Assembly: GCA_017538795.1 (NCBI GenBank)
Contig: JAFYIE010000120.1
Span: forward strand, 1-33,620
Direction: 5' to 3'
DNA from: Bacteroidales bacterium
GTDB taxonomy: Bacteria > Bacteroidota > Bacteroidia > Bacteroidales > F082
DNA length: 33,620 nucleotides
Both the position numbers and the translations under genes were made by a program. The stretch's first letter is position 1; every line of letters begins with the position of its first letter. The notes beneath the pieces were generated by a model, which saw nothing but the letters and a program-made list of their open reading frames with translations, did not search any database and had not been told where the DNA came from. This document shows, piece after piece, positions 6,372 to 33,436 of the stretch.

Positions 6372-9176
6372 CTATTCTGTAGGAAGCTGTACTATCTCTT
6401 TCTTTGCGCCTTTCAGCACTTCTTTAGCGAAGTCGGCGATAGTCTGAGGAGTGATGCTCTTCACGATTTCGTCGTATTCGGCCACGATGTTGATGTTGTC
6501 ATCTTCGAAGGTGTCGATGGCGTTGAGCCAGAAGTTGTTTTCTTCGAGCTGCTCAGCGCGTTTCTTGTAAAGATTTTCAACAACTTTTGTCAAGTCTTCC
6601 TGTGAAGGGCCGTTTGTTGCAACGTCGTTGAGGCCTTCATGAACTTTGTTCATGAGTTTTTCGTACATATCTCTGTTTGTGTCGAAAGCGATGAGGAAAA
6701 TGTAAGAGCTCTTTGGTTTGTCTGAAACCTGACCCATGACGCCGACGCCGTATGTGCCGCCTTCTTCTTCACGTATGGTACGTGTGTAGTAGATGTCCAT
6801 GACATCGCTTAAAGCTTTCATATACAACTGGTTGCGATAGTTATATTCCATATCGCCGTTAATTGTCATGTAGATAGTAGCTTTAGGATTCTGCATCTCT
6901 TTTTCATAGTGGCAGATTATTTCCTCGTTGTTGATGCCGAGGTCGATGTCTTTCCAGTTTTCTTTGCGTTTGGTCTTCTTCAATGATGCTAAATATTGTT
7001 CAACCAATGGTTTGAATGCAGCCTCATCGATGTTTCCAACGAAGTAGAATGTGAAGTTGTTCGGATCTTTGAAGCGGTCGTTATAGATATTCATTGCCTT
7101 TTCATAGTTGATCTTGTCGACATCTTCAGCTTTCATTCTCATGCGGAGCGGGTGGTTGTGATATAACACCTTAATCAATGAGTCGGAGAATGTAATCATC
7201 GGGTTGAGCTCCATGTTTTCGAGAGTTGCCTTGGTGCGCTGTGCGTATGACTGGAATGCTTCTTCATCGCTGCGAGGTGATGTGAAGTACAGATAGATGA
7301 GCTGCATCATTGTTTCAAGATCTTTTGGCGAGCAGCTGCCGTTGAAGCCTTCTGAATATGCGTCGATATAAGGTGTTACGCTGACTTTCTTGCCTGCGAG
7401 TACCTTTGGAAGGTCAGTCTTGCTGAAGTTGCCGACACCACCGAGGACGATGAGGTCGCTGAGTTCCTGCAGAGTGACGAAGTCGTCCTGTTTCAACACA
7501 GAGATACCGCCGTCGCTTGTAGCGCTGAATCTGATTTCGTCTTCCTTGAAGTTGGTCTTCTTGTAGATGACTCTCATGCCGTTGCCGAGTGTCAACACTG
7601 TGGCGTCGAATTCAGGCATTGGAGTCTCTTTTTTGATTTTACCTGGTTTTGGCATGTTCTCTACCATCGGGCCGTCGAATGTCTCTTCTTTGTAAGGCTC
7701 GACTTCTACCGCGTTGGCTGCAGCGTATGTCGCGAGGATTCCTTCCACTGTAGGAAGTGTCTCGCCTTCTTTTTCAGGAGTCATCACAGTGATAACGAGA
7801 TTGTTTTCAGGGATGAGCTGTGCTGCAACCATGTTGATGACTTCGATTGGGAGGTTAGGGATAATCTGCTGATACAGAGCGTATTCTGTCTCAATGCCCA
7901 TCATTGGCTCATTGCTGAGGAAGTTGTTGAGGCATTCGTTGACGTATTTTCTGTTTTCAGTGTTGTTTCTCTCATTGTATTGATTTTCAATCTGTTTCAT
8001 GAAGTCGGCTTTGGCTCTTTCATATTCTGAAGCTGTGAAGCCGAACTGTGCCATACGTTTGTTTTCTGTCACGAGAGTTGTGAGTGCTTCATTGATGCCT
8101 GCCGCGTCTTTAGCCATTGCTATGCTGCACCATGCTTCCTTGGTAGGAGCGATGTAGTAGTTTGAATAGTAGCTGTAGCCGTAAACGAATGGAGGGTTGG
8201 CTTTTTGTGTGATTTCCTGCAAACGGTTGATTTCCATGTGTGTGATGATGTTCAACATATATTGGCTAATCCAGTAGTTGACATCATTTTTCAATGAATC
8301 AGGTGTGGCGTCTGTCTTGTAGTAAAGGTTGATTTCATAGTTTGTTTGCTCAGGGTCAGAAGCGATTGCCACAATAGGTTCTTCGTTGTCGTCAATCATG
8401 AACTGCGGTCTTGGGGCAGGGTCGACTGGTGCCTTGATGTCGGCGAACATCTCTTTGATGCGAGCCTCGATAGCGTCTTGATCGATGTCACCGACGATGA
8501 TGATACCCTGAAGGTCAGGACGATACCATTTGTGGTAGTAGTCGCGGAGTGTCTGATACTCGAAGTTGGCGACGACTTCCGGAAGTCCGCCAGGCAGACG
8601 GTTTGCGTAAGGGCTGTTAGGATACATGATAGGAAGCACTTCCTTCATGAGACGCTCGCTGGCGTCTTCGCGGGTGCGAAGTTCTTCAAGGATGACGCCG
8701 CGTTCGTTGTCGATTTCCTCTTCCTGCAGAGCGATGAAGCTCGACCAGTCGTGGAGGATGAGCAAGCAAGTGTCGACAAGTCCTGGAAGGTTTGTCGGGA
8801 CGTTTGTCACCATGTAGACTGTCTGGTCGATGCCGGTGCCTGCGTTGAGGTTTTCACCGAATTTGATACCACGGCTCTGGAGATACTCACGGAGCATCAT
8901 GCCAGGAAGGTTTGTTGTTCCGTTGAACGCCATGTGTTCAAGGAAGTGGGCGAGACCACGCTGGCTCTCTTCTTCGAGGACAGAACCGACCTTCTGCGCG
9001 ATGTAGAAGTCAGCTCTCTGAGCCGGTTTTTCGTTGTGACGGATGTAATAAGTCAATCCGTTGTCAAGTTTTCCGACTCTGACGTTTGGGTCAGTCGGAC
9101 ATGGCATAGCCATTTGTGCGAAACTTGTTATTGTCATTGCGACAATGAACAGCGCTGATAAGAATAGTTTTTTCAT
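6372..9176 (-). CDS. Periplasmic M16-family zinc peptidase
   Basis: A 934-residue zinc metallopeptidase of family M16 (pitrilysin/PqqL type). It starts with the signal peptide MKKLFLSALFIVAMTITSFAQ and has no lipobox cysteine, so it should be a soluble periplasmic enzyme. The inverted zinc motif HFLEH is at residues 77-81, and the third ligand is expected at E158 in NERGVILEE, the usual distance of 77 residues. The N-terminal half carries the active site. The C-terminal half, starting near residue 530 (TVLTLGNGMRVIYK), repeats the fold without the zinc motif, as is normal for fused M16 proteins, which close like a clam around peptides. It follows rsmG by 37 bases on the same strand and precedes the MFS gene, so a three-gene transcript is possible. 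Confidence 0.93.
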   Translation of the reverse strand: MKKLFLSALFIVAMTITSFAQMAMPCPTDPNVRVGKLDNGLTYYIRHNEKPAQRADFYIAQKVGSVLEEESQRGLAHFLEHMAFNGTTNLPGMMLREYLQSRGIKFGENLNAGTGIDQTVYMVTNVPTNLPGLVDTCLLILHDWSSFIALQEEEIDNERGVILEELRTREDASERLMKEVLPIMYPNSPYANRLPGGLPEVVANFEYQTLRDYYHKWYRPDLQGIIIVGDIDQDAIEARIKEMFADIKAPVDPAPRPQFMIDDNEEPIVAIASDPEQTNYEINLYYKTDATPDSLKNDVNYWISQYMLNIITHMEINRLQEITQKANPPFVYGYSYYSNYYIAPTKEAWCSIAMAKDAAGINEALTTLVTENKRMAQFGFTASEYERAKADFMKQIENQYNERNNTENRKYVNECLNNFLSNEPMMGIETEYALYQQIIPNLPIEVINMVAAQLIPENNLVITVMTPEKEGETLPTVEGILATYAAANAVEVEPYKEETFDGPMVENMPKPGKIKKETPMPEFDATVLTLGNGMRVIYKKTNFKEDEIRFSATSDGGISVLKQDDFVTLQELSDLIVLGGVGNFSKTDLPKVLAGKKVSVTPYIDAYSEGFNGSCSPKDLETMMQLIYLYFTSPRSDEEAFQSYAQRTKATLENMELNPMITFSDSLIKVLYHNHPLRMRMKAEDVDKINYEKAMNIYNDRFKDPNNFTFYFVGNIDEAAFKPLVEQYLASLKKTKRKENWKDIDLGINNEEIICHYEKEMQNPKATIYMTINGDMEYNYRNQLYMKALSDVMDIYYTRTIREEEGGTYGVGVMGQVSDKPKSSYIFLIAFDTNRDMYEKLMNKVHEGLNDVATNGPSQEDLTKVVENLYKKRAEQLEENNFWLNAIDTFEDDNINIVAEYDEIVKSITPQTIADFAKEVLKGAKKEIVQLPTE

Positions 9177-20867: not shown

Positions 20868-21635
20868 ATGAAAAAGATTATTGATTTTACAGTAATTGAC
20901 AAACAATCGTTTCAGCGCGCGGCATTGTTGCGATTGCGTTGCGACTCACCGTTACCGGAAATCCGTGGCGGACAATTCGTGAACGTGCTAGTTGAGGGTT
21001 GCGACAAGGCATATCTGCGTCGTCCAATTTCCATTCATGATGTTGATTATCAGAACAATACAATTGATTTGCTGATTCAGGAAAAGCACGAAGGTACAAA
21101 GAAATTGTGCGCGTTGCCAGTGGGAGCGAAGGTGAATGTTGTTTTACCTCTCGGAAACGGATTTACTATGCCTGAAAAAGATGACAACGTTCTGTTGGTC
21201 GGCGGTGGCATTGGAATCGCACCGTTGTTGTATTTTGCGAAAATGATTTGTAAAGATGCACGGCCGTGCGTTTCAACATTTTTGTTAGGCGGCCGCACGA
21301 AAGACGACCTTATGCTGTTAGACCGATTCCGTTCTGTTGGCGACGTTTTTATCACAACCAACGACGGTTCGATGGGCGAGAAAGGTTTTGTAACCGAGCA
21401 TTCGCTTTGGAATACGATGAAAATCAATAAGATATATGCTTGTGGTCCTATGCCGATGATGAAAGCTGTGGCGAAGGTCGCAAAAGAAAAAGGCATCTGG
21501 TGCGAGGTGTCGCTCGAAAACCAGATGGCATGCGGCATAGGCGCCTGCCTGTGCTGTGTCGAGAACACCAAAGAAGGCAATTTGTGCGTTTGTAAAGAAG
21601 GTCCGGTTTTTAATATTGAGAGGTTGTTATGGTAA
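20868..21635 (+). CDS. pyrK: Dihydroorotate dehydrogenase electron-transfer subunit
   Basis: FAD and 2Fe-2S subunit that passes electrons from the PyrD catalytic subunit to NAD+ in pyrimidine synthesis. It has 255 residues. The FAD-binding motif RRPISI is at 51-56 and the NAD-binding glycine loop [10 protein letters not shown] at 111-120. The iron-sulfur cysteines are C222, C227, C230 and C242, in [10 protein letters not shown] and VCKEGPVF, the family pattern. Residues 128-137 ([10 protein letters not shown]) are encoded by a GC-rich palindromic repeat (21249-21278) that recurs in the methyltransferase gene; relatives have a shorter, variable stretch here. pyrD starts seven bases before the pyrK stop codon, so the two subunits are translationally coupled. 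Confidence 0.95.
21249..21278. repeat. Palindromic repeat inside pyrK
   Basis: A segment with the 12-base perfect palindrome GCACGGCCGTGC at 21258-21269 and flanks TGTAAAGAT and GTTTCAACA. It matches the segment at 32933-32962 at all but two positions and is read in the same frame, giving [10 protein letters not shown] in both proteins. Confidence 0.85.
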
Positions 21636-22540
21636 AAACAGAAATAAAACTCAAGGGTTTGACTCTGAAAAACCCAGTCATGACCGCGTCGGGAACGTTC
21701 GGCTACGGCGAGGAATATGCCGATTTTGTTGACCTTTCGGAACTTGGCGGCATCATAGTGAAAGGCACCACCTTGCACCATCGCGAAGGCAATCCTTATC
21801 CGCGTATGGCAGAAACGCCTATGGGAATGCTCAACTGTGTCGGACTTCAAAACAAAGGTGTCGATTACTTCATCGAGACTATTTATCCACGTATCAGACA
21901 TTTCGATACCAATGTTTTGGTGAATGTAAGTGGCTCAAACATAGATGATTATGTTACTGCAGCCGCAAAAATTGACGCACTTGAAGATATACCGGCCATC
22001 GAGCTTAATGTGTCGTGCCCTAATGTGAAACAAGGCGGCATGGCGTTTGGCGTGACATGTTCTGGCATAGAACAGGTTGTGAAAGCCGTTCGTGAAGTCT
22101 ATCACAAGCATTTGATGGTGAAGCTCTCGCCAAATGTTACAAACATCGCAGAGATAGCGCTTGCTGCCGAAGCCGCTGGTGCCGACTCCGTCTCATTAAT
22201 TAATACATTGCTAGGCATGGCCATCGACGCCGAAACAAGAAAGCCAATTCTTTCGATGGTAACCGGCGGATTATCAGGTGCTTGCGTTAAGCCAGTGGCA
22301 TTGCGTATGGTGTGGCAAGTTGCCAAAGCTGTTAAGATTCCAGTAGTCGGCTTGGGAGGCATATCATCAGCCACCGACGCTATAGAATTCCTGCTCGCCG
22401 GTGCCTCCGCAATTCAAATCGGCACAGCCAACTTCATCGACCCGGCAATATCTGGCAAAGTTGCCAAAGGCATAGTGGAATATTGCGAAAAGCATGGGGT
22501 AGAGGATGTAAATGAATTAATCGGCGGGTTGATTATATAA
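21629..22540 (+). CDS. pyrD: Dihydroorotate dehydrogenase, class 1B catalytic subunit
   Basis: FMN enzyme oxidising dihydroorotate to orotate, the fourth step of pyrimidine synthesis; in class 1B it works with PyrK and NAD+. It has 303 residues. The active-site cysteine C130 lies in [11 protein letters not shown], which separates it from class 2 enzymes that use serine. The FMN and substrate stretches ASGTFGYG (20-27), [11 protein letters not shown] and [20 protein letters not shown] are present. It overlaps pyrK by seven bases and, at its 3' end, the convergent murB by eight bases. Confidence 0.97.
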
Positions 22541-23621
22541 TATTCACTTCCGGTTTTATCTCAATTCCGAATTTGTCATTAACGGATTCTTGAATTTTTT
22601 TCATCAAGTCCAGGATTTCCTGCGGTTTTCCGCCACCGTAATGGACTAGGACGAGGGCTTGCTTGTCCCAGACACCGACATGATTTTCACGATGGCCTTT
22701 CCAACCGGCACGGTCAATTAACCAACCAGTAGGAATTTTAACCATTGCAGGAGATGAAACGCTGTCATTCCGACCGACCGAAGGGAGTGGAGGAATCTCA
22801 ACCGGATAAGACGGGACGTCTGAATATAACGCCTTGATTTCCTGATATTTGTCAACAGAAACTATTGCGTTTTGGAAGAAACTTCCAACACTTCCCACAA
22901 CCCCGACTTCTGGCAATTTTTCTGCACGAATCGCCTTCACCGTTGATGCCACGTCTTGAATTGTAGGGTTGGTTATGTTGTTGGCAATCAAATAATTGCG
23001 AATATTACCGTAATCCAATTTCAATTCACCATGTTTTTTCAAAATGAAATCAACAGCAAAAATCAAAGGGAAAACTTCACACTTCAAACTCCAAACTCCA
23101 AACTTTTTGAAAACCGAATTCCGATACGAAAAATGGCATTCCTCGTTGCTGAAAACCTTGGTTTTGCCTGTCGCCAAATCAATCGTATGTACTTGACACA
23201 CAGTGTCTTTAACTTCTGCACCATAGGCTCCGATGTTCTGAACAGGCGCCGCCCCGACCTTGCCAGGGATGTCGGCGAGATTCTCCAAACCGTAAAGACC
23301 TTTTGAAACGGTATAATCGACAAAATTTTTCCAAACTTCGCCACAATTGCAGCGAATCTTAACGGTTTCAGCGTTTTCTTCGAGCGTTTCAATGCCTTTC
23401 AGATTAGGGTAAACCACAAAACCGTCGAAAAATTCAGAGGAGAAAAGGATGTTGCTGCCGCCACTCAGAATTAAGACGCGAATGGCGTCTCTACATTCGA
23501 TAAATTCAGGATTTGCAATTAATTCACGGATATCTTCCATTGTTTTCAATTCCTGAAAATATCTCGCCTTCACGTCAAAACCGAAGGTGTTGAGCTCCCG
23601 CAACGAAAAGTTTTTCTCCAT
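22533..23621 (-). CDS. murB: UDP-N-acetylenolpyruvoylglucosamine reductase, with repeat insertions
   Basis: FAD enzyme reducing UDP-GlcNAc-enolpyruvate to UDP-MurNAc with NADPH, the second committed step of peptidoglycan synthesis. The ATG at 23621 gives 362 residues, against about 340 for this type. Conserved stretches are GGSNILF (54-60), [21 protein letters not shown] (114-134), SYRNSVF (165-171, catalytic arginine) and GSFFQN (246-251, catalytic serine). Three stretches look foreign and coincide with repeat DNA: CRDAIRV (about 43-49), [11 protein letters not shown] (about 173-183) and [17 protein letters not shown] (about 273-289). All lie between conserved blocks and keep the frame, so the enzyme is probably active. 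An in-frame TTG six codons upstream is a less likely start. Confidence 0.94.
22763..22800. repeat. 38-base repeat-like segment inside murB
   Basis: It begins TGTCATTCCGACCGACC on the plus strand and ends GGAGGAATCTCA. Sequences of this form (GAGATTCCTCC ... GGAATGACA) are, to my knowledge, widespread dispersed repeats in Bacteroidota and other bacteria. In murB it is read on the minus strand as [14 protein letters not shown], a stretch absent from typical MurB between the NAxVS and KIPxGWLI blocks. Confidence 0.65.
23075..23102. repeat. Heptanucleotide tandem repeat inside murB
   Basis: Four consecutive heptamers on the plus strand: CTTCACA, CTTCAAA, CTCCAAA, CTCCAAA. In murB they encode the odd stretch [10 protein letters not shown] between the SYRNSVF block and the LDYGN block. 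Confidence 0.75.
23472..23494. repeat. Diverged palindromic repeat inside murB
   Basis: AGACGC (23474-23479) and GCGTCT (23485-23490) surround the five bases GAATG. On the minus strand it reads TGT AGA GAC GCC ATT CGC GTC, that is CRDAIRV. The arms, the flank TGTAGAGACGC and the reading frame match the elements in pyrK and the methyltransferase gene; only the centre differs. Confidence 0.7.
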
Positions 23622-23706
23622 TTCTGAAATTTTTTTCAAAAATAAATAAAAAATGTCAAACTACAAGAGAAAATCTGTAATTTTATAGCTTGAAATTTTA
23701 CATGCA

Positions 23707-24822
23707 TTGAAACGTGTTATCGTATCGGTTATCAATGACTTAGTGACCGACCAGCGTGTCAACAAGTCGTGCCTGACCTTGCAGAAAGCAGGGTTTGAGG
23801 TGCTTCTTGTGGGTCGCAGGCAACGTAAATCGCCTCCGATGGACGAACGGCCGTACAAATCGCACCGCATGAAACTGCTTTTCGAGAAAGGGCCGTTTTT
23901 CTATGCTGAGTTTAATATCCGACTTTTCATATTTTTACTTTTTCATCGCTGCAATTGCCTGTTATCCAATGACTTAGACACTTTGTTGCCGAACTTTTGG
24001 ATTTCAAAATTGAAACGCGTTCCGCTGATTTACGACAGTCACGAATATTTTACCGAAGTGCCTGAGTTGGTGAGCCGTCCGAAGGTTCAGAAGGTTTGGA
24101 AGCGCATTGAGGAATATGTTGTGCCTAAGTTACCTGAGATGATAACGGTTTGCCAGTCGATTGCTAAACTTTTCCATGAAAAATATAGCATAAAAGTACA
24201 TGTCATCCGCAACATCCCGATGCGCAAAATGTTGCCTGCGCCCGCTTCTTGCGAAGAGATAGGCCTTGACCCGAGCAAACACATTCTCGTGCTTCAAGGC
24301 TCGGGCATTAACATCCATCGCGGCTCTGAAGAGCTTGTCGATGCAATGGCTTATCTCGATGATTGTCAGTTAGTTATCATCGGTGGGGGAGATGTACTGC
24401 CGATTTTGAAGGAGAAAGTCGCGATCAATCATTGGGATGACAGAGTGAAGTTTTTCCCGCGCATGCCGTATCAGAAAATGATGGCGATAACACAGCTCGC
24501 GGAACTTGGCTTCACGCTCGATAAAGACACAAATTTGAATTACAGGTTCAGTCTGCCCAACAAACTTTTCGATTATATTCAGGCCGGAGTGCCGATTATC
24601 GCGTCGCGTCTCGCTGAAATTGAAAGAATCATAACTGATTATAACATAGGCACTTTCATTGAAAATCATGAGCCTAAGACCATTGCCGACACCATCCAAA
24701 ATGTGTTAAATGATGAAAAGAATTTGGCGCAATGGAAAAATAATCTTATCTTTGCAGCGCAGGATCTCTGTTGGGAGAATGAAGAAGAGGTTTTGCTGAA
24801 AATATATGAAAAATACGTCTGA
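23707..24822 (+). CDS. GT4-type glycosyltransferase
   Basis: Cytoplasmic or membrane-associated glycosyltransferase of the GT-B fold, 371 residues. The N-terminal domain starts VIVSVINDLVTDQRVNKSC with the family's glycine-poor acceptor loop and later IYDSHEYF. The C-terminal donor domain has LVLQGSGINIHRGSEELVDA, the RMPYQKMMAI stretch, and the GT4 nucleotide-sugar motif LPNKLFDYIQAGVPIIAS with the following E. The start is a TTG at 23707. No ATG fits, and the family-conserved sequence begins directly there, so TTG is probably real. A weak box TAATTTTA lies at about 23679-23686. It overlaps the next glycosyltransferase by 17 bases. Substrate unknown; cell-surface polysaccharide or LPS synthesis is the likely setting. 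Confidence 0.85.
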   Translation: MKRVIVSVINDLVTDQRVNKSCLTLQKAGFEVLLVGRRQRKSPPMDERPYKSHRMKLLFEKGPFFYAEFNIRLFIFLLFHRCNCLLSNDLDTLLPNFWISKLKRVPLIYDSHEYFTEVPELVSRPKVQKVWKRIEEYVVPKLPEMITVCQSIAKLFHEKYSIKVHVIRNIPMRKMLPAPASCEEIGLDPSKHILVLQGSGINIHRGSEELVDAMAYLDDCQLVIIGGGDVLPILKEKVAINHWDDRVKFFPRMPYQKMMAITQLAELGFTLDKDTNLNYRFSLPNKLFDYIQAGVPIIASRLAEIERIITDYNIGTFIENHEPKTIADTIQNVLNDEKNLAQWKNNLIFAAQDLCWENEEEVLLKIYEKYV

Positions 24823-25933
24823 TAATCATGTACATATCGTGAGTTTCGACATCCCGTGTCCGGTGAACTACGGAGGCGTTATCGACGTTTTTTTCAAGGT
24901 GAAAGCTCTTGCTGAGCGTGGTTTCAAGGTGCATATGCACTGTTTTGAATACGGACGCGAGCCGTCTCCAAGGCTTGAGGCGTTGTGTTATTCTGTGGAT
25001 TACTACAAGCGTAAAACTACTTTCGGAAAGATTTTTAATAACATTCCATATATCGTAATTTCAAGAATATCAGAGGATTTGATTCAAAATATGTTGAAAG
25101 ACGACTATCCGATAATTCTTGAGGGACTGCATACTTGCGGTGTTTTGCTTGACTCGAGGATGCAGAATCGTAAGATTTTTGTGCGCGCTCATAACGTGGA
25201 GCACGATTATTACCAATATCTGGCCGCGACCGAGAAAAATCTCAGGAAAAAGCTGTTTTTGAAGATGGAATCCCGGAAACTGCGCAGGTTTGAGTCGATT
25301 TTAACGAAAGCCACGGGAATACTTGCCATTTCTAACAAAGATTACGAGTATTTTAAGCAAAGACACGACAATGTGTATCTGATTCCGGCGTATGCGGGTT
25401 TCGACAAGGTTGATGTTCTCGAAGGTCAGGGTGATTTTGTGCTTTACCATGGGAAGTTGGACGTTTCGGAGAATTACAATGCCGCTGAATTCTTGATAGA
25501 GAAGGTTTTCAAAGGCTTGGATGTAAAATTAAAAATCGCTGGCATGAATCCGCCTCGCCATCTCTTGAAATGCGCTGGTAGAGTGCCGAATGTGGATGTC
25601 ATTGAGAACCCTGACGACGAGACTTTGCAGGATCTTATCCGCAATGCTCAAATCAATATTTTGGTTACGGCACAGTCGACCGGGTTGAAGCTAAAGCTGT
25701 TAAACGCTTTGTTTAACGGACGTTATTGTGTGGTTAACGACGAGATGGTCGATGGTTTGGATGTCAACGACTTATGCGTTGTGGCGAATACCGCCGACGA
25801 GATAAAAACTGTCGTTTCCGACCTCATGACGAAGCCTTTCGTCGAGGAACAAATCGCCGTCAGGAAGAGCAGGATGGATGCTTTTTACAATCCTTCGCAT
25901 GCCACTGACAAACTCGTGGAGTTACTTGGCTGA
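24806..25933 (+). CDS. Glycosyltransferase (GT4-like)
   Basis: Second GT-B-type glycosyltransferase, 375 residues, beginning inside the end of the previous gene (17-base overlap) and so translationally coupled to it. The N-terminal part has SFDIPCPVNYGGVIDVFFKVKAL, a typical acceptor-side glycine loop, and VRAHNVEHDYY, a stretch common in this group. The C-terminal part has VLYHGKLDVSENYNAAEFLI and STGLKLKLLNALFNGRYCVV, the donor-binding region in which the usual E-x7-E pair is not clearly kept. Together with the preceding gene it would add two sugars to one glycan. It converges on the ftsE-like gene with a 12-base overlap. Confidence 0.82.
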   Translation: MKNTSDNHVHIVSFDIPCPVNYGGVIDVFFKVKALAERGFKVHMHCFEYGREPSPRLEALCYSVDYYKRKTTFGKIFNNIPYIVISRISEDLIQNMLKDDYPIILEGLHTCGVLLDSRMQNRKIFVRAHNVEHDYYQYLAATEKNLRKKLFLKMESRKLRRFESILTKATGILAISNKDYEYFKQRHDNVYLIPAYAGFDKVDVLEGQGDFVLYHGKLDVSENYNAAEFLIEKVFKGLDVKLKIAGMNPPRHLLKCAGRVPNVDVIENPDDETLQDLIRNAQINILVTAQSTGLKLKLLNALFNGRYCVVNDEMVDGLDVNDLCVVANTADEIKTVVSDLMTKPFVEEQIAVRKSRMDAFYNPSHATDKLVELLG

Positions 25934-26593
25934 TTCGGTTATCGTGCCATTGGCGCAGCTTATCACGCGTGAAGGATATTTCAAAATCAGATTATAGTTG
26001 TGGGTTGCCATCAAAATGGTGGTGCCGTTGTCGCGAATCTTCATGATGAGTTTCATGATGTCGTTTGTCGTTTCCGGGTCGAGATTGCCCGTTGGCTCGT
26101 CTGCCAAAATGACATTCGGGTTGTTGAGCAAGGCTCTTGCTATGGCGACACTCTGTTGCTCTCCACCGGAAAGCTGATGTGGCATTGATTTCCTTTTGCC
26201 TTGAAGTCCAACGAGTTGCAGCACCTCGTCGATGCGGCGGTTGATGCTGTCCTCATCCTCCCAACCTGTTGCTTTCAGCACAAAAGAAAGGTTTTGTTCG
26301 ACATTTCTGTCGTAAAGAAGCTGGAAATCCTGGAAAACGATGCCGATTTTTCGTCTAAGCATCGGGATGTCTTTTCTTTTGATATCGTTGAGGCTGAATC
26401 CCGCTATGTTGAAGATGCCGTCTATTGCGGGGATGTCGGCATATAAAGTCTTCAGCAGCGATGACTTTCCGGAGCCGCTTCTTCCGATGAGATAAACGAA
26501 CTCGCCCTCGTTGATTTCGAGGTTTATGTTATTGAGAATCAATCGATCATGTTGAAAAACAGAGCCGTTTTTTATGTAGATAACAGAAGCCAT
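25922..26593 (-). CDS. ftsE: FtsE-like ABC ATPase
   Basis: ATPase of the FtsE/LolD class, 223 residues. FtsE works with the membrane protein FtsX at the division septum, where the pair controls peptidoglycan hydrolases. Walker A is GRSGSGKSS (about 38-46), the Q-loop is VFQDFQLL, the signature is LSGGEQQSVAIARAL (QS where QR is usual), and Walker B is VILADEPTGNLD. The start is the ATG at 26593. An ATG six codons upstream (26611) lies three bases from the promoter box and would precede the transcription start. No ftsX gene is adjacent, so the partner must be elsewhere; LolD-like or MacB-like ATPases are the alternative. Confidence 0.85.
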   Translation of the reverse strand: MASVIYIKNGSVFQHDRLILNNINLEINEGEFVYLIGRSGSGKSSLLKTLYADIPAIDGIFNIAGFSLNDIKRKDIPMLRRKIGIVFQDFQLLYDRNVEQNLSFVLKATGWEDEDSINRRIDEVLQLVGLQGKRKSMPHQLSGGEQQSVAIARALLNNPNVILADEPTGNLDPETTNDIMKLIMKIRDNGTTILMATHNYNLILKYPSRVISCANGTITESAK

Positions 26594-26613
26594 AAATAAT
26601 AATTTTCTCATTG

Positions 26614-26642
26614 CAAAGATACTGAAGATTTTTGTATTTTTG
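26614..26642. promoter_or_regulatory. Divergent promoters of ftsE (minus) and the TonB receptor (plus)
   Basis: On the minus strand TATCTTTG is at 26621-26614, upstream of ftsE. On the plus strand TATTTTTG is at 26635-26642, with a TTG at 26611-26613 and a 21-base spacer, upstream of the receptor. The ftsE box lies within the spacer of the receptor promoter, so the two promoters should compete for polymerase. Confidence 0.6.
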
Positions 26643-26667
26643 CCCTCGTTTTTTAAAATATTATTCT

Positions 26668-28536
26668 ATGAAGAGATTTATTCTACTTTTATTATTAGGA
26701 TTTAGCTTGGTTTCTTATGCTCAGAACGACACTATTCATAAATTGGATGAGGTCGTCGTAACAGGAACACGTAACGCCGTTGATATTCGTCATCTTCCTA
26801 TGACGGTGACGGTTATTGAAAGAGAAAAATTGGTTGAGCAGTATCAGCCAAGCATATTGCCTACGGTGATGCAGCAGGTGCCTGGTTTGTTTGTTACAAG
26901 CCGTTCGATGATGGGTTATGGCGTCTCGACAGGAGCCGCAGGCGGTATCAATTTAAGAGGTATCAGCGGAGGTGCAGGTCAATTGCTCGTGTTAATCGAC
27001 GGACATCCTCAATATCAAGGTATTTACGGACATCCTATCAGCGACAGTTATCAGACTATGATTGTTGACCGTGTCGACGTGCTTCGTGGTCCAGCCTCGG
27101 TGCTTTATGGCAGCAACGCTATGGGCGGCGTGATAAACATTGTCACACGTTCGATGCATGAAGACGGCGCTCAAACCAATGTCAACATAGGCGGAGGAAG
27201 TTATGGCACTTTCCAGTCGGAGGTCGCAAGCCAGGTTAAAAAAGGAAAGTTCAGTAGCACTGTTTCGGCGCAATATAACCGCTCCGACAACCATCGTCCG
27301 AACATGGGTTTTGAACAAAATGGAGGATATGTTAAACTCGGTTACGATATCTCGGAGCATTGGAAAACCTATGCCGACGTCAATGTAATTCATTTCAACG
27401 CCTCAAATCCTGGTTCTGTAAAGGAACCGCTTTATGGTGCCGAACAATGGATTACCCGTGGCGTGGTATCAGCTGCCGTCGAAAATCATTATGAGAAAAC
27501 AAGCGGCGCAATCAGTGTTTACTCAAACTTCGGAAAGCATAAAATCGACGATGGTTCAAATATTGACACAGTGCCAACAACACGATATTTCCGTTCGGAA
27601 GATGCTTTGACAGGTATTTCGTGGTATCAGAGCGCAGTGCTTTTTGCTGGAAATCGTTTGACTGTAGGTGTTGATTATCAGCATATTTATGGCTATGCCT
27701 ATTATACCTCGAAGGCGACAGGAAACATTATTGACACCCCAAACAAACAAAGCGGCAAGTCGAATCGTGACGAGATAGCAGGTTATGTCGACTTACGTCA
27801 GGATATTGTGTCGTGGATGACAGTAGATGCAGGTTTGCGTTATGATTATCATAGTGTTAGTGGCGCTGAGTTGGTGCCGCAGGCAGGCGTTGTGGTCCGC
27901 CCGATATCAACAGGTGAGGTAAAAGCCATGGTGAGCAAGGGATTTAGAAATCCTACCATGCGTGAGTTGTATCTCTATCCGCCTTCAAACGAAGACCTTG
28001 AGCCTGAGCGTCTTTGGAACTATGAGTTGTCGTGGAAACATCGTCCGGGCAAGCTCGTTTACGGCGTGAACCTCTATTATATTAAAGGTGACAATATGAT
28101 TCAGACTGTCAGAATCGACGGTAAACCTAAGAATGTCAACACTGGTGAGATAGAGAATTATGGCGCTGAGCTTGAGGCAAGCTATAGAATTTGCAGTAAA
28201 TTGAGCGTCAATACAAATCATTCGTTCCTGCACATGGAGCATAAAGTCATTTCAGCTCCTGAATACAAAGGCTTTGTAGGCGCCGATTTCAATTATAACC
28301 GCTGGTCGGTGAATGCCGGTTTGCAGTATATCAACGGGCTTTACTCTTCTGTTGAAGAAAATAAAGAAGAAAAAGAGGAGTTCTGCCTTTTGGATGCGGC
28401 AGTTAAGTTTAATGTCTGGGAAGGTCTTGACCTTTGGGTACGTTGTGAGAACCTGTTAGATCAGGACTATGAGATAATGAAAGATTATCCTATGCCACGC
28501 GCTACATTTATGGGTGGTATCAACTTGAAATTCTAG
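26668..28536 (+). CDS. TonB-dependent outer-membrane receptor
   Basis: Outer-membrane beta-barrel of 622 residues that imports a scarce ligand, using energy from TonB. It starts with the signal peptide MKRFILLLLLGFSLVSYAQ, then a TonB-box-like DEVVVTGTR. The plug domain covers about 40-145 (INLRGISGGAGQLLVLIDG, then VDRVDVLRGPASVLYGSNAMGGVINIVT). The barrel ends in the terminal phenylalanine of GGINLKF. It lacks the carboxypeptidase-like N-terminal domain of SusC proteins and has no SusD neighbour, so it resembles BtuB or siderophore-type receptors (cobalamin, iron chelates) rather than glycan importers. The ligand is not known. The open frame continues 12 codons upstream from a TTG, but that part lies over the promoter box. 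Confidence 0.92.
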   Translation: MKRFILLLLLGFSLVSYAQNDTIHKLDEVVVTGTRNAVDIRHLPMTVTVIEREKLVEQYQPSILPTVMQQVPGLFVTSRSMMGYGVSTGAAGGINLRGISGGAGQLLVLIDGHPQYQGIYGHPISDSYQTMIVDRVDVLRGPASVLYGSNAMGGVINIVTRSMHEDGAQTNVNIGGGSYGTFQSEVASQVKKGKFSSTVSAQYNRSDNHRPNMGFEQNGGYVKLGYDISEHWKTYADVNVIHFNASNPGSVKEPLYGAEQWITRGVVSAAVENHYEKTSGAISVYSNFGKHKIDDGSNIDTVPTTRYFRSEDALTGISWYQSAVLFAGNRLTVGVDYQHIYGYAYYTSKATGNIIDTPNKQSGKSNRDEIAGYVDLRQDIVSWMTVDAGLRYDYHSVSGAELVPQAGVVVRPISTGEVKAMVSKGFRNPTMRELYLYPPSNEDLEPERLWNYELSWKHRPGKLVYGVNLYYIKGDNMIQTVRIDGKPKNVNTGEIENYGAELEASYRICSKLSVNTNHSFLHMEHKVISAPEYKGFVGADFNYNRWSVNAGLQYINGLYSSVEENKEEKEEFCLLDAAVKFNVWEGLDLWVRCENLLDQDYEIMKDYPMPRATFMGGINLKF

Positions 28537-28542
28537 TTGATA

Positions 28543-29337
28543 CTACCATTTCCCGCTTGCGCCGCCGCCGCCGAAGTGACCTCCTCCGAAGCCACCGAAG
28601 CCGCCTGAGCTATGTCCGCTGCCCCAGGAGCTGCCGCCCCAATTGTTGCCACGGCTCCTGCCGCCGCCCGACATCAGGTTGCCGATGAAGAAGCCTTCCC
28701 AGAAGCTCAGTCTTCTGCCTGACGAGCCGCCGCCTCTGTTCCTTCCTAATAATTTGATAAGGAAGAGGACAAAGAGAAGGGAGAATATTAATATAAATAT
28801 TCCAAAAGTATCGCTGTCATCGTCGGAATTGCGTTTGTTGCCTTTGTAAGCGCCGGTTGCCAGTCCGATTATAGCGTCGCAGGCGTTGTTGATACCTTTA
28901 TAATAATTGTTTTCCTTGAAAGCCGGAATCATCTCAAGTTCGATGATGCGTCGTGCCATGGCGTCGGTGACATAAGCTTCCATGCCATAACCCACTTGGA
29001 TGGCGACATCGCCGTATGCATTCCCGATTTTTGGCAAGACAAGGATGATGGCGCCGTTATTTTCTTTATGCCCGACGCCCCATTTCTCACCGATCTGATA
29101 GGCAAAATCGTTTGATGTCGTGCCGTTTAGACTTGTAACTGTTACGACGCAAATCTGTGTTGAGGTGCTGTCGTTGTAAGCCACCAGTTTCTTCTCTAAC
29201 GCACGTTCCTGCTTGTCTGTCATGATATTAGCGAAGTCATTGACCAGACGCGGTGGGGTAGGCCTCGCCGGAATCTTCTGGGCAAGGCCTGCCACACCTA
29301 TCATTAATAATGCCAATATAAGGCAAAGTCTTTTCAT
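28543..29337 (-). CDS. TPM-domain protein with glycine-rich tail (YgcG-like)
   Basis: Membrane-anchored protein of 264 residues facing the periplasm. A signal peptide (about 1-19) is followed by a TPM domain from about 30 to 155 (VNDFANIMTDKQERALEKKL, then STQICVVTV and GVGHKENNGAIILV). One membrane helix follows (about 175-195, FGIFILIFSLLFVLFLIKLL), then a tail very rich in Gly and Ser that ends HFGGGGASGKW. TPM proteins are often encoded beside LemA; a role in repair or assembly of membrane complexes is proposed for the photosynthetic member. The ATG overlaps the stop of the lemA-like gene by one base. Confidence 0.9.
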   Translation of the reverse strand: MKRLCLILALLMIGVAGLAQKIPARPTPPRLVNDFANIMTDKQERALEKKLVAYNDSTSTQICVVTVTSLNGTTSNDFAYQIGEKWGVGHKENNGAIILVLPKIGNAYGDVAIQVGYGMEAYVTDAMARRIIELEMIPAFKENNYYKGINNACDAIIGLATGAYKGNKRNSDDDSDTFGIFILIFSLLFVLFLIKLLGRNRGGGSSGRRLSFWEGFFIGNLMSGGGRSRGNNWGGSSWGSGHSSGGFGGFGGGHFGGGGASGKW

Positions 29338-29930
29338 TAGAATTCAACTTTAGGAGCCGCCTCTGAACCAGCCTGTGCCTTGAAATATCCGACTTTCTCG
29401 AAATCGAACATGTTGGCGATGATGTTACGAGGAAACATCCTGATAAATTGATTGTATTCGCTAGCTCTGTCGTTGAACTTCTGGCGTTCCACAGCGATGC
29501 GGTTTTCTGTTCCTTCAAGCTGTGACTGCAGTTCAAGGAAGTTCTTGTTCGCCTTCAGGTCAGGGTAACGCTCGATGGTGACGAGGAGTCGTGACAACGC
29601 GCCCGACAACTGGTCTTGAGCCGCTTGGAACTTAGCGATATCTTTAGGATCAAGCTCTGAAGGATCGACAGTGATGCTTGTAGCCTTTGCGCGCGCCTCG
29701 ATGACGGCTGTCAGAGTGTTCTGTTCATGCTCGGCATAGCCTTTCACCGTTGCCACGAGGTTAGGGATGAGGTCGGCACGACGCTGATACACGTTTTCAA
29801 CCTGAGCCCATTGAGCCTCAACTATTTCCTGACGTGAGACGCATCCGTTGTATGAACCTTTAATCCACAAGTAAATCGCCAAAACGACTACTGCGATGAT
29901 GATGATTGTAATCAAACTTTTCTTTTTCAT
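29337..29930 (-). CDS. lemA: LemA family protein
   Basis: Small membrane protein of 197 residues with one N-terminal helix (about 7-24) and a long helical domain. The family stretches QWAQVENVYQRRADLIPNLV, then YPDLKANKNFLELQSQLEGTENRIAVERQKFN and FPRNIIANMF are all seen. Its function is unresolved; in several bacteria it is linked to the cell envelope and appears with TPM proteins, as here. It starts 18 bases downstream of the htpG stop codon, so htpG, lemA and the TPM gene are probably one transcript. Confidence 0.95.
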   Translation of the reverse strand: MKKKSLITIIIIAVVVLAIYLWIKGSYNGCVSRQEIVEAQWAQVENVYQRRADLIPNLVATVKGYAEHEQNTLTAVIEARAKATSITVDPSELDPKDIAKFQAAQDQLSGALSRLLVTIERYPDLKANKNFLELQSQLEGTENRIAVERQKFNDRASEYNQFIRMFPRNIIANMFDFEKVGYFKAQAGSEAAPKVEF

Positions 29931-29948
29931 TGTGATTAGGTTTAAATG

Positions 29949-31850
29949 TTATTTAATTGTGTTAAAATTCCTATTGATAAACTCACTTAACTCTTTGCCT
30001 TTCAATAAGTTCTTCGACAATCTGGCTAAGTCGTAAAGCTGGTTGATAATCGCTTTCCTCTCATCTTCCGGCTTGTCGAGCAATGTTGCGATGGCAGCGT
30101 TGTTGGTGTTGAGCATCAGAGTGTAGCTGTCAGGCATGTCGCCCCACATCGGCATTCCGCCCATCTGGTTCATCTCTTTGTAACGGCGCATCCATTCGTT
30201 TTGGATGATCTCGACAGGAGCCTCATTCTCGTCCAAAGTGCTGAACTCAACATTGAAATGTGTCTTGTCGATGATGTCCTCGAACGCCTTCTTCACCTCT
30301 TCCTTCTGCTTTTCGTCGAGCTTTGATTCCTTCTTAACATCCTCTTTTTCAATGAGTTTGTCGATGGTGTTCGAGTCGACTCTTGCAAACGAGGTGTGCT
30401 CAAACTTCTGCTCAAACGTGCTGATGAAGTGCGAGTCGAGCATTCCGTCGAGCATCAACACATTGTAGCCGCGCTCCTTGGCCTTCTCGATGTTCGTATA
30501 TTGCTCATCCTGATTTGTCGCGTACAAATATACGACATTTCCGTCTTTGTTTTTCTGATTTTCTTCGATAAGTTTTCTGTATTCCTCGATGGTGTAATAT
30601 TTGCCGTCGGTGTCCTTGAAAAGCATGAATTTCTCAGCTCTTTCGAAGAATTTCGGGTCGGCAATCATGCCATAAACGATGAAAATCTTGATATCGTCCC
30701 ATTTCTTTTCGTAATCCTCGCGGTCTTTCTTGAAGAGTTCCTCAAGTTTTTCGGCCACCTTTTTAGTAATATAAGACGAAATCTTCTTCACGTTCTGATC
30801 ATTCTGCAGGAACGAACGGCTCACGTTGAGCGGGATGTCAGGCGAGTCGATGACGCCGTGCAGCAAGCTCAAGAAGTCAGGCAAAATGCCCTCGACAGAA
30901 TCGGTCACGAACACCTCGTTGCAATAGAGCTGAATCTTGTTGCGCTGGAATTCGTAACGGTTCGAAATCTTAGGGAAATAAAGGATTCCCGTGAGGTTGA
31001 AAGGATAATCTACATTCAGATGGATGTGGAACATCGGCTCGGTGAAGTTCATCGGATACAAGGTGTGATAAAACTCATTGTATTCCTTGTCCTCAATGGT
31101 TGATGGAGCTTTCTTCCAAAGTGGAGCTACATCGTTGATAATCCATGGTTTTTCAACCTCTTTGGTCTTCTGCTTGCCGTCTTTGTCCTTTTCACCTTCA
31201 ATAGGTTCCTGAACTTTTTTTGTACCAAATTGAATCGGCACCGACATGAACTTGCAGTACTTGTTGAGCAATTCACGAATCTTGCCTTCTTCGAGGAAAT
31301 CGGCACAATCGTCTGAAACATAGAGGATTACGTCGGTTCCGCGGTTGCCTTTCGCGATAGGATTCATGGTGTACTCAGGCGAGCCGTCGCACTCCCAAAT
31401 GACGCCTTTTTCGTCGGCTTTCTGAGTGTAAGACTTAGTAATCAGCGACACTTTCGACGACACCATGAAAGCGGAGTAGAAGCCCAAGCCAAAATGTCCG
31501 ATGATGTTGGCAGCCTCGGCCTCGCTGTTGGTCTTGAATTTCTCCACAAACTCAGTGGCGCCTGAGAAAGCTATCTGGTTGATGTATTTGTCAACTTCAG
31601 CCTCTGTCATGCCGATGCCGTTGTCGCGCACGGTGATGGTCTTTTTCTTCTTATCGACCTCCACTTTGATGGTCAAATCGCCCAGCTCGCCGTTGAATTC
31701 GCCAGCAGATGCAAGGGTTTTTAGTTTTTGCGTCGCATCGACAGCATTACTGATTATCTCACGTAAAAATATCTCGTTTTCCGAGTATAAAAACTTTTTG
31801 ATTACAGGAAAAATGTTTTCCGTTTTAACTCCTATTGATCCGTTTGACAT
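29949..31850 (-). CDS. htpG: Chaperone HtpG (Hsp90)
   Basis: Bacterial Hsp90, an ATP-dependent homodimeric chaperone of the cytoplasm. With the ATG at 31850 it has 633 residues. N-terminal ATPase motifs are EIISNAVDA (near 35), RDNGIGMT, and GHFGLGFYSAFMV. The middle domain contains the NVSRSFLQ stretch with the catalytic arginine region. The C-terminal dimerisation domain ends in ELSEFINRNF. The open frame continues 33 codons upstream, but that extension lies in the dispersed repeat and does not resemble Hsp90. No TAnnTTTG box is visible upstream. Expression from a stress-specific promoter is possible but not shown. Confidence 0.97.
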   Translation of the reverse strand: MSNGSIGVKTENIFPVIKKFLYSENEIFLREIISNAVDATQKLKTLASAGEFNGELGDLTIKVEVDKKKKTITVRDNGIGMTEAEVDKYINQIAFSGATEFVEKFKTNSEAEAANIIGHFGLGFYSAFMVSSKVSLITKSYTQKADEKGVIWECDGSPEYTMNPIAKGNRGTDVILYVSDDCADFLEEGKIRELLNKYCKFMSVPIQFGTKKVQEPIEGEKDKDGKQKTKEVEKPWIINDVAPLWKKAPSTIEDKEYNEFYHTLYPMNFTEPMFHIHLNVDYPFNLTGILYFPKISNRYEFQRNKIQLYCNEVFVTDSVEGILPDFLSLLHGVIDSPDIPLNVSRSFLQNDQNVKKISSYITKKVAEKLEELFKKDREDYEKKWDDIKIFIVYGMIADPKFFERAEKFMLFKDTDGKYYTIEEYRKLIEENQKNKDGNVVYLYATNQDEQYTNIEKAKERGYNVLMLDGMLDSHFISTFEQKFEHTSFARVDSNTIDKLIEKEDVKKESKLDEKQKEEVKKAFEDIIDKTHFNVEFSTLDENEAPVEIIQNEWMRRYKEMNQMGGMPMWGDMPDSYTLMLNTNNAAIATLLDKPEDERKAIINQLYDLARLSKNLLKGKELSEFINRNFNTIK

Positions 31851-31867
31851 AATTATATTTATTTGAT

Positions 31868-32160
31868 TTGTTATTTCTTTTTTGCCCTCACGGGCTGTTT
31901 TTTGTTCCTTTTCCCTTGATGGAAAATGAGCCGAAAAGATCAAGAGCAAAAATAAGCTCTAACCGCACTTTTTGCTCTGGCCCGTGCTGTAAACCCTGTG
32001 GGGCAAAGCCATCTGGGGCAGAGCCAAGACCGATGGAAGCCGTAGGCTTCATCTTTGAATCGCTTCGCGGTGCGGTGGCCTGCGCCAGACGGCGGTCCGA
32101 GCATCGGCTGGCGCTTGACTTTTTGGTTACTTTTTTGTCAAGAAAAAAGTAACAAGAAAC
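31868..32160. repeat. Dispersed-repeat-like element filling the htpG-methyltransferase gap
   Basis: This covers most of the 404-base gap between htpG and the methyltransferase gene. It is richer in G and C than the surrounding intergenic DNA and full of small hairpins: GCCC/GGGC at 31884-31895 followed by a T run, GAAGCC/GGCTTC at 32036-32050, and GTTACTTTTTT/AAAAAAGTAAC at 32126-32153. A 94-codon open frame on the plus strand ends in FLVTFLSRKK, a phrase I know from many spurious open frames of such repeats in Bacteroidota and other phyla. The segment between the hairpins also has a partial tandem repeat (TGGGGCAAAGCCAT / TGGGGCAGAGCCA). No protein function is supported. Confidence 0.65.
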
Positions 32161-32208
32161 CTCGTCCGTAGGACGATTATATCAAATATTATGCCAAAAT
32201 AAAAGTAC

Positions 32209-32239
32209 TGACAAAATGTCAATATTTTTTGTAATTTTG
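32209..32239 (+). promoter_or_regulatory. Methyltransferase gene promoter with an upstream palindrome
   Basis: TAATTTTG at 32232-32239 is a TAnnTTTG box 16 bases before the ATG at 32255. Just upstream is the perfect inverted repeat TGACA-AAA-TGTCA at 32209-32221, in the place where an upstream promoter element would be. It could be an operator; it is short and could also be chance. Confidence 0.5.
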
Positions 32240-32254
32240 CAAAAAAGATTTTAA

Positions 32255-33436
32255 ATGGAAAAATTCTTCGAAAAACTCGATTCGGCACTTAAAAACGGCT
32301 CTATTGTCAAGATGACATTGTCAAAACCTGTGGCAAAAAACAATGATCTGCGAAATATCTATGTAAAGCCTATCTTGTTGAAAGACAATAAGATGTATCA
32401 GTTTACCTATCGTTATGAGCGCCGTGACGAGACGAAGAATTTCGATGCCAATCAGACAATGGAGCAGGTGAGGAGCCTGGTTCCGACTGACTTTCAAAAC
32501 GTGTCGCTTTTTACCTTGACAGAAGACGTGACGCTGCTTGTCAGCAAGAAAGGCAAGCCCACGCTGATGTGCAAAGCCGTGAAGGAACAGCGCGAGCAGG
32601 ACATGAGTCACGACCACGAGAAACAGCGCCTGATTGATTCGTCGAATCCTTGGTGGAACCTTCTTGGACTGACATCGCGCGATGGCAAGGTCCTCGCCGA
32701 CATGCAGCATAAGTTCAAGCAGATCTGCAAATACGTCGAAATTGTTGACGGCGTTATGCGTCAGACAAAATTTGATGACGAAATCCATATTGCCGACATG
32801 GGGGCAGGGAAGGGCTATCTGACGTTCGCATTGTATGAATATCTGACCACGCATTACGACAAGAAAATCGTGATGGAAGGCGTTGAGATTCGTAAGGATT
32901 TGGTCTTGAAAATCAATGATATAATTGAAAAATGTAAAGACGCACGGCCGTGCGTCTCAACAATACGTTTCGTGGAAAATTCCATTGAAGATTACAAACC
33001 ATCAAATCTTGACGTGTTAATCGCCCTCCATGCCTGCGACACTGCCACCGACGACGCTATATTAAAAGGTATCCGTAACAACGCCAAATTGATTATCTGT
33101 GCGCCGTGCTGCCATAAGCAGATTCGTCGCGAGATGGAAAAATCGGGCAAGACCGATGCGATTACAAAATATGGTATCTTCCTTGAGCGTCAGGCTGTTA
33201 TGATTACCGATGCAGTTCGCGCCCTTATCCTTGAATATTGTGGCTACAAAACCCAAGTTATGGAGTTCATCGAAATCGACAACACCCCTAAAAATGTGCT
33301 TCTTGTCGGTAGAAAGAGTGACAAACCTGTTGATAAAGAAGCGGTTACAAAGCAGATTGATGGTTTATTGAAGCAGTATGGCATTGAAGAACATTATCTT
33401 TGGAAAAATCTATGGAAAAATTGTCGCGCGTATTAA
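32255..33436 (+). CDS. SAM-dependent methyltransferase (Methyltransf_32-like)
   Basis: Predicted class I methyltransferase of 393 residues. The C-terminal domain starts near residue 175: the SAM-binding motif IADMGAGKGYLTFALYEYL is at 179-197, the acidic strand end EGVEIR at 208-213, and VLIALHACDTATDDAI and ICAPCCHKQIRREM follow. The ALHACDTATD and PCCHK pattern is typical of the Methyltransf_32 family (related to GSTCD), some of which act on RNA; the substrate here is unknown. The N-terminal 130 residues form a separate domain, perhaps for substrate binding. Residues 227-236 ([10 protein letters not shown]) are encoded by the same palindromic repeat as in pyrK and sit in a variable part between the SAM-binding strands. 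A short leader follows the promoter box. Confidence 0.85.
   Translation: MEKFFEKLDSALKNGSIVKMTLSKPVAKNNDLRNIYVKPILLKDNKMYQFTYRYERRDETKNFDANQTMEQVRSLVPTDFQNVSLFTLTEDVTLLVSKKGKPTLMCKAVKEQREQDMSHDHEKQRLIDSSNPWWNLLGLTSRDGKVLADMQHKFKQICKYVEIVDGVMRQTKFDDEIHIADMGAGKGYLTFALYEYLTTHYDKKIVMEGVEIRKDLVLKINDIIEKCKDARPCVSTIRFVENSIEDYKPSNLDVLIALHACDTATDDAILKGIRNNAKLIICAPCCHKQIRREMEKSGKTDAITKYGIFLERQAVMITDAVRALILEYCGYKTQVMEFIEIDNTPKNVLLVGRKSDKPVDKEAVTKQIDGLLKQYGIEEHYLWKNLWKNCRAY
32933..32962. repeat. Palindromic repeat inside the methyltransferase gene
   Basis: Contains a perfect 20-base palindrome at 32938-32957 (AGACGCACGG and its complement), with flanks TGTAA on the left and CAACA on the right. It is the best-preserved copy of the element also seen in pyrK and, diverged, in murB. 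It encodes [10 protein letters not shown]. Confidence 0.88.

Follow-up and report, generated by a model that had tools for sequence, protein, structure and literature searches.

In-frame palindromes in Bacteroidales housekeeping genes as probable double-foot REP passengers of a RAYT found in related genomes

The closest described counterparts of the element considered here are the double-foot repetitive extragenic palindromes (REPs) of TnpAREP subclass 2.4, equivalent to group 4 of the REP-associated tyrosine transposases (RAYTs). According to the available portion of PMC6006769, this subclass is abundant in Cyanobacteria and Bacteroidetes and is characterized by 5' GT[AG]G and 3' C[TC]AC tags, a rayt gene flanked by the element, and an in-frame REP within that gene, between HuH and Y; insertions in unrelated genes are mentioned there by citing others. 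The present work concerns a 33,620-nt stretch of Bacteroidales DNA (the window), in which a 30-base palindrome lies in frame in pyrK and in an unrelated methyltransferase gene, with a decayed copy in murB, and whose relatives carry further members of the same repeat family, some of them adjoining a RAYT. The family matches that portion of the subclass 2.4 description in its GTAG and CTAC ends, its element-flanked RAYT, the in-frame copies after the HuH motif, and its presence in both Bacteroidetes and Cyanobacteria, while the RAYT itself resembles the subclass 2.4 consensus given there by the motifs NHIH or NHVH and WQ only. Set against the same description, it stands apart by the half of its 44 strict copies in four genomes that lie within genes and by the replacement of cores at fixed sites. 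The element is regarded as very probably another double-foot REP of known type, unusual in its intragenic share and its core replacement.

Other described repeats resemble the element in single features. GTAG- and CGTC-tagged REPs are mostly intergenic, with intragenic ones in several species, as stated in the available part of PMC3733652, and the GTAG-tagged ones share with the present family a short palindrome, the tag, and some copies in coding regions. In the classical GTAG REPs of that source, however, the tag is unpaired and stands at one end, whereas here a single copy bears a tag at either end and the two pair with each other; classical REPs also seldom overlap coding regions, in contrast to the 22 of 44 strict copies found here in open reading frames (ORFs) of at least 190 aa. 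CGTC-tagged REPs combine a terminal CGTC with a CCA-like tail, unlike the TGTAG and CTACA ends of the present element, which therefore falls outside that class. The palindromic elements of Rickettsia are described, in the same part of PMC3733652, as palindromic repeats residing in protein genes without breaking them. A first-pass annotation of the window had likened its copies to these elements, and by description the analogy is a fair one, the host group being a different one. We know of no link between the Rickettsia elements and the RAYT reported here. Finally, the available text of PMC3686654 describes REPs as almost exclusively intergenic, with mechanisms of dissemination and change not known, and introduces the 'orthoswitch', in which REP classes are replaced at orthologous RAYT genes by a mechanism likewise not known. 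As far as that text goes, replacement of one REP class by another at a fixed place is a shared feature, the difference being that it occurs there at RAYT genes and here at single copies in ordinary genes. Among the matches listed from the open literature, no report of this repeat in Bacteroidales genes or of fixed-site core replacement was encountered, which is a weak negative.

The window is contig C61 of G000, a 2.48 Mb assembly of 122 contigs that is 93.5% complete and 6.6% contaminated (G and L numbers denote genomes and loci, respectively). A REP-like palindrome, TGTAAAGATGCACGGCCGTGCGTTTCAACA, lies in frame at 21249..21278 (+) in pyrK, the gene of the dihydroorotate dehydrogenase electron transfer subunit (20868..21635, +), and another, TGTAAAGACGCACGGCCGTGCGTCTCAACA, lies in frame at 32933..32962 (+) in the methyltransferase gene (Methyltransf_32; 32255..33436, +). 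The two copies differ at 2 of 30 bases, each contributing an insert of the same ten residues, and in both the feet have decayed to GTAA...CAAC. Their positions, the two base differences and the identical peptide had been reported by the first-pass annotation and were confirmed, as was the perfect 20-base palindrome it saw in the methyltransferase copy, the core at 32938-32957 being found on both strands. With up to three mismatches allowed, the 20-base core AGACGCACGGCCGTGCGTCT occurs at two places in the window, against a maximum of 0 in 100 shuffles. A decayed 27-nt copy with a different, shorter core stands in frame in murB (22533..23639, -) at 23469..23495 (-), encoding CRDAIRV; within it, TGTAGAGACGCCATTCGCGTC occupies 23475-23495, the full span being reached once the degenerate right arm is included, and the CTACA end is gone. 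The first-pass annotation had recognized this third, diverged copy correctly while placing it slightly off, at 23472-23494. Orthologues of 23 of the 25 window genes were present in the fetched stretches, and the element was seen only in pyrK, murB and the methyltransferase gene; indels of at least 4 aa occur in several window genes, those lacking the element having been judged by eye on the protein. A further place at 8650-8667 has no outer arms and was put down to chance.

The family has the form TGTAGAGACGC-core-GCGTCTCTACA, with a core mostly of 8 bases, and its consensus is its own reverse complement. The ends read TGTAG and CTACA, with GTAG pairing with CTAC in the consensus; ends of this type are present in the consensus and in all 44 strict copies, the two best window copies having the feet GTAA and CAAC. 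The strict form, TAGAGACGC-N-GCGTCTCTA, was found at 44 places in four genomes (3 in G000, 7 in G005, 22 in G011 and 12 in G026) and at 0 places in the reversed control. A genome-wide search of the kind proposed by the first-pass annotation did return further copies in G000, where the ACGGCCGT-core pattern at up to three mismatches occurs at 7 places against 2 in the reversed control. With any core allowed, AGACGC-N-GCGTCT gives 9 places in G000 against 5, a weak pattern by itself, and the outer arms are what separate the element from background. Within the genus, 60 genomes searched with a loose pattern have 1 to 71 places each (control 0 to 23), 18 of them exceeding the control by 15 or more, and strict arms were found in 26 of 296 genomes of a phylum sample (control 1), the perfect palindrome occurring in several families of the phylum. 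That the shared DNA is a repeat and not a domain, as the earlier reading held, is borne out by the recurrence of the arms in unrelated genes and by relatives with empty sites.

The core varies yet keeps pairing. In 34 distinct 28-base copies, taken from among the matches listed in the phylum sample, 37 cells were altered on both sides compared with 12.6 in shuffles, and the covariation score was matched by 0 of 500 shuffles; the arms are fixed by the search pattern, so only three core pairs inform this test. Weaker measures were less decisive, with 3 pairs showing two-sided changes against 3.0 and the number of further pair types reached by 26 of 500 shuffles. The GATTAATC-core form, used as a 30-base query, aligns with Calothrix and Kovacikia plasmids over 29 bases, all 29 identical, and the 13 plasmid records matching it are all cyanobacterial; the small dispersed repeats (SDR) of cyanobacteria are a candidate counterpart. 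A phage or plasmid vector was considered and set aside. Searches with the ACGGCCGT form gave no match in plasmid records (near-match search) or in phage records. Among contigs catalogued as viral in IMG/VR, 87 stretches fit the strict pattern of the element, and some of these contain three copies.

Half of the strict copies (22 of 44) lie within ORFs of at least 190 aa, namely 3 of 3 in G000, 2 of 7 in G005, 13 of 22 in G011 and 4 of 12 in G026. A wider census, allowing up to 5 of 22 arm mismatches in loci mostly fetched because they carry copies, and hence not a random sample, comprised 112 places; 50 belong to ORFs of 190 aa or longer, 8 to ORFs of 100-189 aa and 54 to neither class. When 20 of the 33 host ORFs were searched against Pfam, 18 matched at 1e-8 or better, including Mur ligase-alanine racemase, 4-alpha-glucanotransferase, QueA (queuosine synthesis), NqrA, AnmK, RibD, LD-carboxypeptidase and a PrmC_N protein, while the host ORFs at L015 and L369 gave no Pfam match in this search; the host names QueE, MalQ, dihydroorotase and HemW are our own reading of the sequences. 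The element thus sits in frame in unrelated hosts, and relatives with empty sites exist, in agreement with the first-pass view that it enters unrelated genes without breaking them.

Read in its three frames, the consensus gives, in turn, the ten-residue peptide of the window copies, the peptide VETHGRASL and a TAG stop. The 50 copies from ORFs of 190 aa or longer are distributed as 21 in the window-peptide phase, 29 in the VETHGRASL phase and 0 in the TAG phase, this last count being partly circular since an ORF cannot span a stop. At up to two mismatches the counts are 16, 16 and 0, and after removal of 8 orthologous duplicates 42 sites remain, of which 13 give the window peptide and 29 give VETHGRASL. 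Phases 0, 2 and TAG hold 3, 2 and 3, respectively, of the 8 copies from the shorter ORFs (100-189 aa), which were set aside as doubtful. Copy length is divisible by three in 49 of 50 in-gene copies versus 42 of 54 others (p 0.002; p 0.022 at up to two mismatches). Joining the flanks of copies outside ORFs produced an ORF of at least 190 aa, that is, a broken gene, in 0 of 48 cases, these being the copies among the 54 with 600 bp on both sides. From the phase counts, the absence of broken genes among these 48 and the length bias, it follows that two reading phases are tolerated, not one. The common frame noted in the first-pass annotation accordingly holds for the three window copies and fails for the family, and its suggestion that a single orientation and phase is tolerated does not stand: both stop-free phases are in use, and orientation is meaningless because the consensus is self-reverse-complementary. 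The inserts likely form surface loops.

Comparison with relatives shows filled and empty sites. PyrK lacks the element in G005, G034, G015, G017, G006 and G025 and carries it in G011, and in G026 an element with another core stands five codons further on. The methyltransferase copy is common to G000, G011 and G005, and is missing from G026, G017, G015 and G025, which are 15 nt shorter there. In further relatives the element is missing from 9 of 9 PyrK and 2 of 2 methyltransferase sequences, not all of them independent, some evidently being assemblies already among the G genomes (G015, G028). The inserts of pyrK and the methyltransferase gene are therefore missing in close species, and the peptide is absent from distant homologues of either protein, both outcomes agreeing with the insertion proposed by the first-pass annotation. 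The murB element site is empty in G017 and G034 and bears other cores in G026, G015, G005 and G011. Altogether, 21 insertion sites were compared with orthologues from one to five relatives each; as judged by eye, at least one relative has no insert at 14 of 21 sites, and at 7 of 21 the same loop is occupied in some relative by another kind of repeat. Some inserts, such as those of the methyltransferase, RibD and NqrA, recur in more than one species. The species with a filled methyltransferase site are not monophyletic in the tree of that gene, which calls for loss or gene exchange in addition; the species tree and gene trees are poorly resolved and at odds with the filled-site pattern, which may reflect gains, losses or gene exchange. 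The more distant methyltransferases of G027 (L055) and G009 (L076) have an unlike, longer insert further on, near ...SSIED/SSIEA....

A candidate mobilizer was found in G011, where a 194-aa ORF at C1:226370-226951 lies between two element copies, one of which supplies its stop codon, and holds a third copy in frame. This ORF matches the REP-associated tyrosine transposase model NF047646 with E 5.8e-18 and 65.2 bits, the curated cut-off being 80, and also Y1_Tnp with E 1.4e-5, above its cut-off. At E up to 1e-3, 38 of the 60 genomes of the genus contain relatives of this RAYT. One locus per genome was read in 30 of these 38 genomes, and 29 were scored, L457 being without an ORF. An element stands within 300 bp of the RAYT gene in 22 of 29 cases and an in-frame internal copy, after the HuH motif, is present in 19 of 29, compared with anything similar at 2 of 48 other Y1_Tnp loci; scoring allowed up to 6 of 22 arm mismatches and counted L477, which has a GTAGGGACG look-alike. 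The RAYTs at L466, L476 and L479 have neither a flanking nor an internal element, and some copies adjoining RAYTs are tagged at one end only. A single core type usually prevails next to a RAYT, as AAAATTTT does in G003, G022, G028 and G016. Across the 60 genomes, uncorrected for relatedness, copy-number excess rises modestly with how many cognate RAYT matches a genome has (rho 0.54, p 9e-6).

The wider set of Y1_Tnp (PF01797) genes was considered as the mobilizer and rejected, with none in G000, a correlation of 0.30 versus 0.54, and 46 of 48 loci without the element. The PF01797 genome search itself missed the cognate RAYT, probably since the element interrupts its domain, and the RAYT turned up by reading around the G011 copies. 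The hairpins flanking other Y1 transposase genes of the genus (L107-L114, L411-L450) are quite unlike the element, and some form repeated arrays, such as GCATCCGCC...GGCGGATGC at L414; they are probably further REP families.

Taken together, it is very probable that the palindromes are double-foot REP copies, non-autonomous passengers of the RAYT (HUH/Y1 type) found in relatives. The element would fold into a hairpin whose two ends are GTAG and CTAC, whose arms GTAGAGACGC/GCGTCTCTAC are fixed, and whose core, mostly of 8 bases, varies but pairs with itself. By analogy with published TnpAREP, the RAYT would bind and cut this hairpin as single-stranded DNA and place copies elsewhere, insertion being the presumed direction of events. 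Many genic insertions would survive because a complete copy adds 30 bp, a length divisible by three, and has no stop in two of its three phases, whichever strand is read, with the resulting loops presumably neutral, while copies in the TAG phase or of other lengths would be removed by selection. Several results weigh against this account. No RAYT of the G011 kind was found in G000 at E up to 1e-3 in an assembly 93.5% complete, and the two best window copies have mutated feet; G012 and G026 are rich in copies and gave no match to the cognate RAYT. The PF01797 match count also correlates with copy excess (rho 0.30, p 0.018, n 60), and among the 18 high-copy genomes as many (16) have a PF01797 match as have a cognate RAYT. 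Net length change at insertion sites is often other than +30 nt, being +30 for QueA, +42 for MalQ, +15 for a RecD-like helicase, +18 for AnmK and about 0 nt for RibD, which would mean that insertion is often accompanied or followed by loss of neighbouring bases. The few, decaying copies of G000 look like relics, given that no cognate RAYT was found there.

At some fixed sites the core appears to have been replaced. At L378, G011 and G005 agree at 18 of 18 outer bases and differ at 10 of 10 inner bases, with 3 of 31 and 4 of 30 differences in the flanks and each copy self-complementary at 26 of 28 positions. In malQ, G000/G011 and G015 agree at 13 of 18 outer and 0 of 10 inner bases, the flanks showing 7 of 31 and 8 of 35 differences. 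At both sites, separate insertions that happened to hit the identical base may be an alternative. NqrA is filled in 6 of 6 species with two main cores and differing flanks, making independent insertion possible there, and the murB site-1 copies of G026, G015 and G005 differ at 1 or 2 of 10 inner bases, which fits ordinary mutation. A rather doubtful idea is that double-foot REPs serve as landing pads for hairpin exchange, in which the RAYT would cut both GTAG feet of a resident copy and swap in the hairpin of another, so that the insertion point and arms persist and the core changes. If true, this would account for sister species having equal flanks and arms with wholly different palindromic cores, as at L378 and malQ, and REP classes could switch in place, even inside working genes.

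Several other explanations deserve weighing against RAYT passengers. A scheme in which recombination or template switching among scattered palindromes does most of the spreading, and the RAYT is a bystander carrying copies, would accommodate the net changes of 0 to +42 nt, the cores replaced at fixed sites, and the copies in G012 and G026 without a cognate RAYT match; it is nonetheless unlikely, as the association is RAYT-specific (flanking 22 of 29, inside 19 of 29, versus 2 of 48 other loci) and a RAYT and its flanks usually share a core type. It is less likely still that the inserts are kept for useful peptides, the element being a source of selected surface loops. The inserts common to several species, such as those of the methyltransferase, RibD and NqrA, would suit such selection, whereas the about equal use of two peptides from two phases in unrelated hosts, the insert-free relatives at 14 of 21 sites (by eye), and the occupation of the same loops by other repeats argue against it.

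A host function of the palindrome as a binding site or structural signal, such as that of a regulator or terminator, is suggested by the recurrence of the perfect palindrome across several families of the phylum as well as in plasmids of cyanobacteria, and by the placement of non-genic copies between tandem (27) or convergent (18) and rarely divergent (2) genes. Against this, the core is free to vary if pairing is kept, the distribution is patchy (26 of 296 genomes of the phylum sample), and many copies lie in unrelated coding regions and are missing in sister species, leaving this explanation highly improbable. Chance similarity or assembly artefact has next to no likelihood: the background of the looser pattern is sizeable, as the 9 places against 5 in G000 illustrate, but the window core is absent from shuffles, the strict pattern has a reversed control of 0 in four genomes, and the same junctions recur in independently assembled species.

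On the RAYT-passenger reading, a tiny putative passenger has taken up residence in ordinary enzyme genes of gut bacteria and left them intact. A genus with half of its strict copies (four genomes) intragenic and with filled and empty orthologues makes target choice, loop tolerance and core turnover countable, and the candidate RAYT makes mobility a biochemical question. Other small repeats seem to share the loops, so that they may be readable as a natural insertion scan of housekeeping proteins.

MurB illustrates this sharing, with three loops whose small repeats differ among close species (relatives at L115-L123). The second loop, at 23070..23105 (-), carries heptamer-like GGAGTTT repeats in G000 and G017 and other palindromes in G026, G011, G005 and G015, and the third, at 22762..22799 (-), carries a hairpin-like repeat, GAGATTCCTCC...GGTCGGAATGAC, in G000, with related ones in G005 and G034 and none in six others; both are repeats different from the element. 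Further peptides, among them ISPFRFASVEMT, SFRAERSVVEKSS and DFSIPLRFTRNDV, take up the same loops in relatives (L526, L553 and L558 of G000; L540 of G011), and the DNA words encoding them are enriched in the fetched loci, which suggests another widespread hairpin repeat. At L410 (G014), a radical SAM protein at 486-1799 contains heptamer-derived tandem peptides, RSWELGVRKKEEGVRSGELGVRKKEE, and adjoins an element copy.

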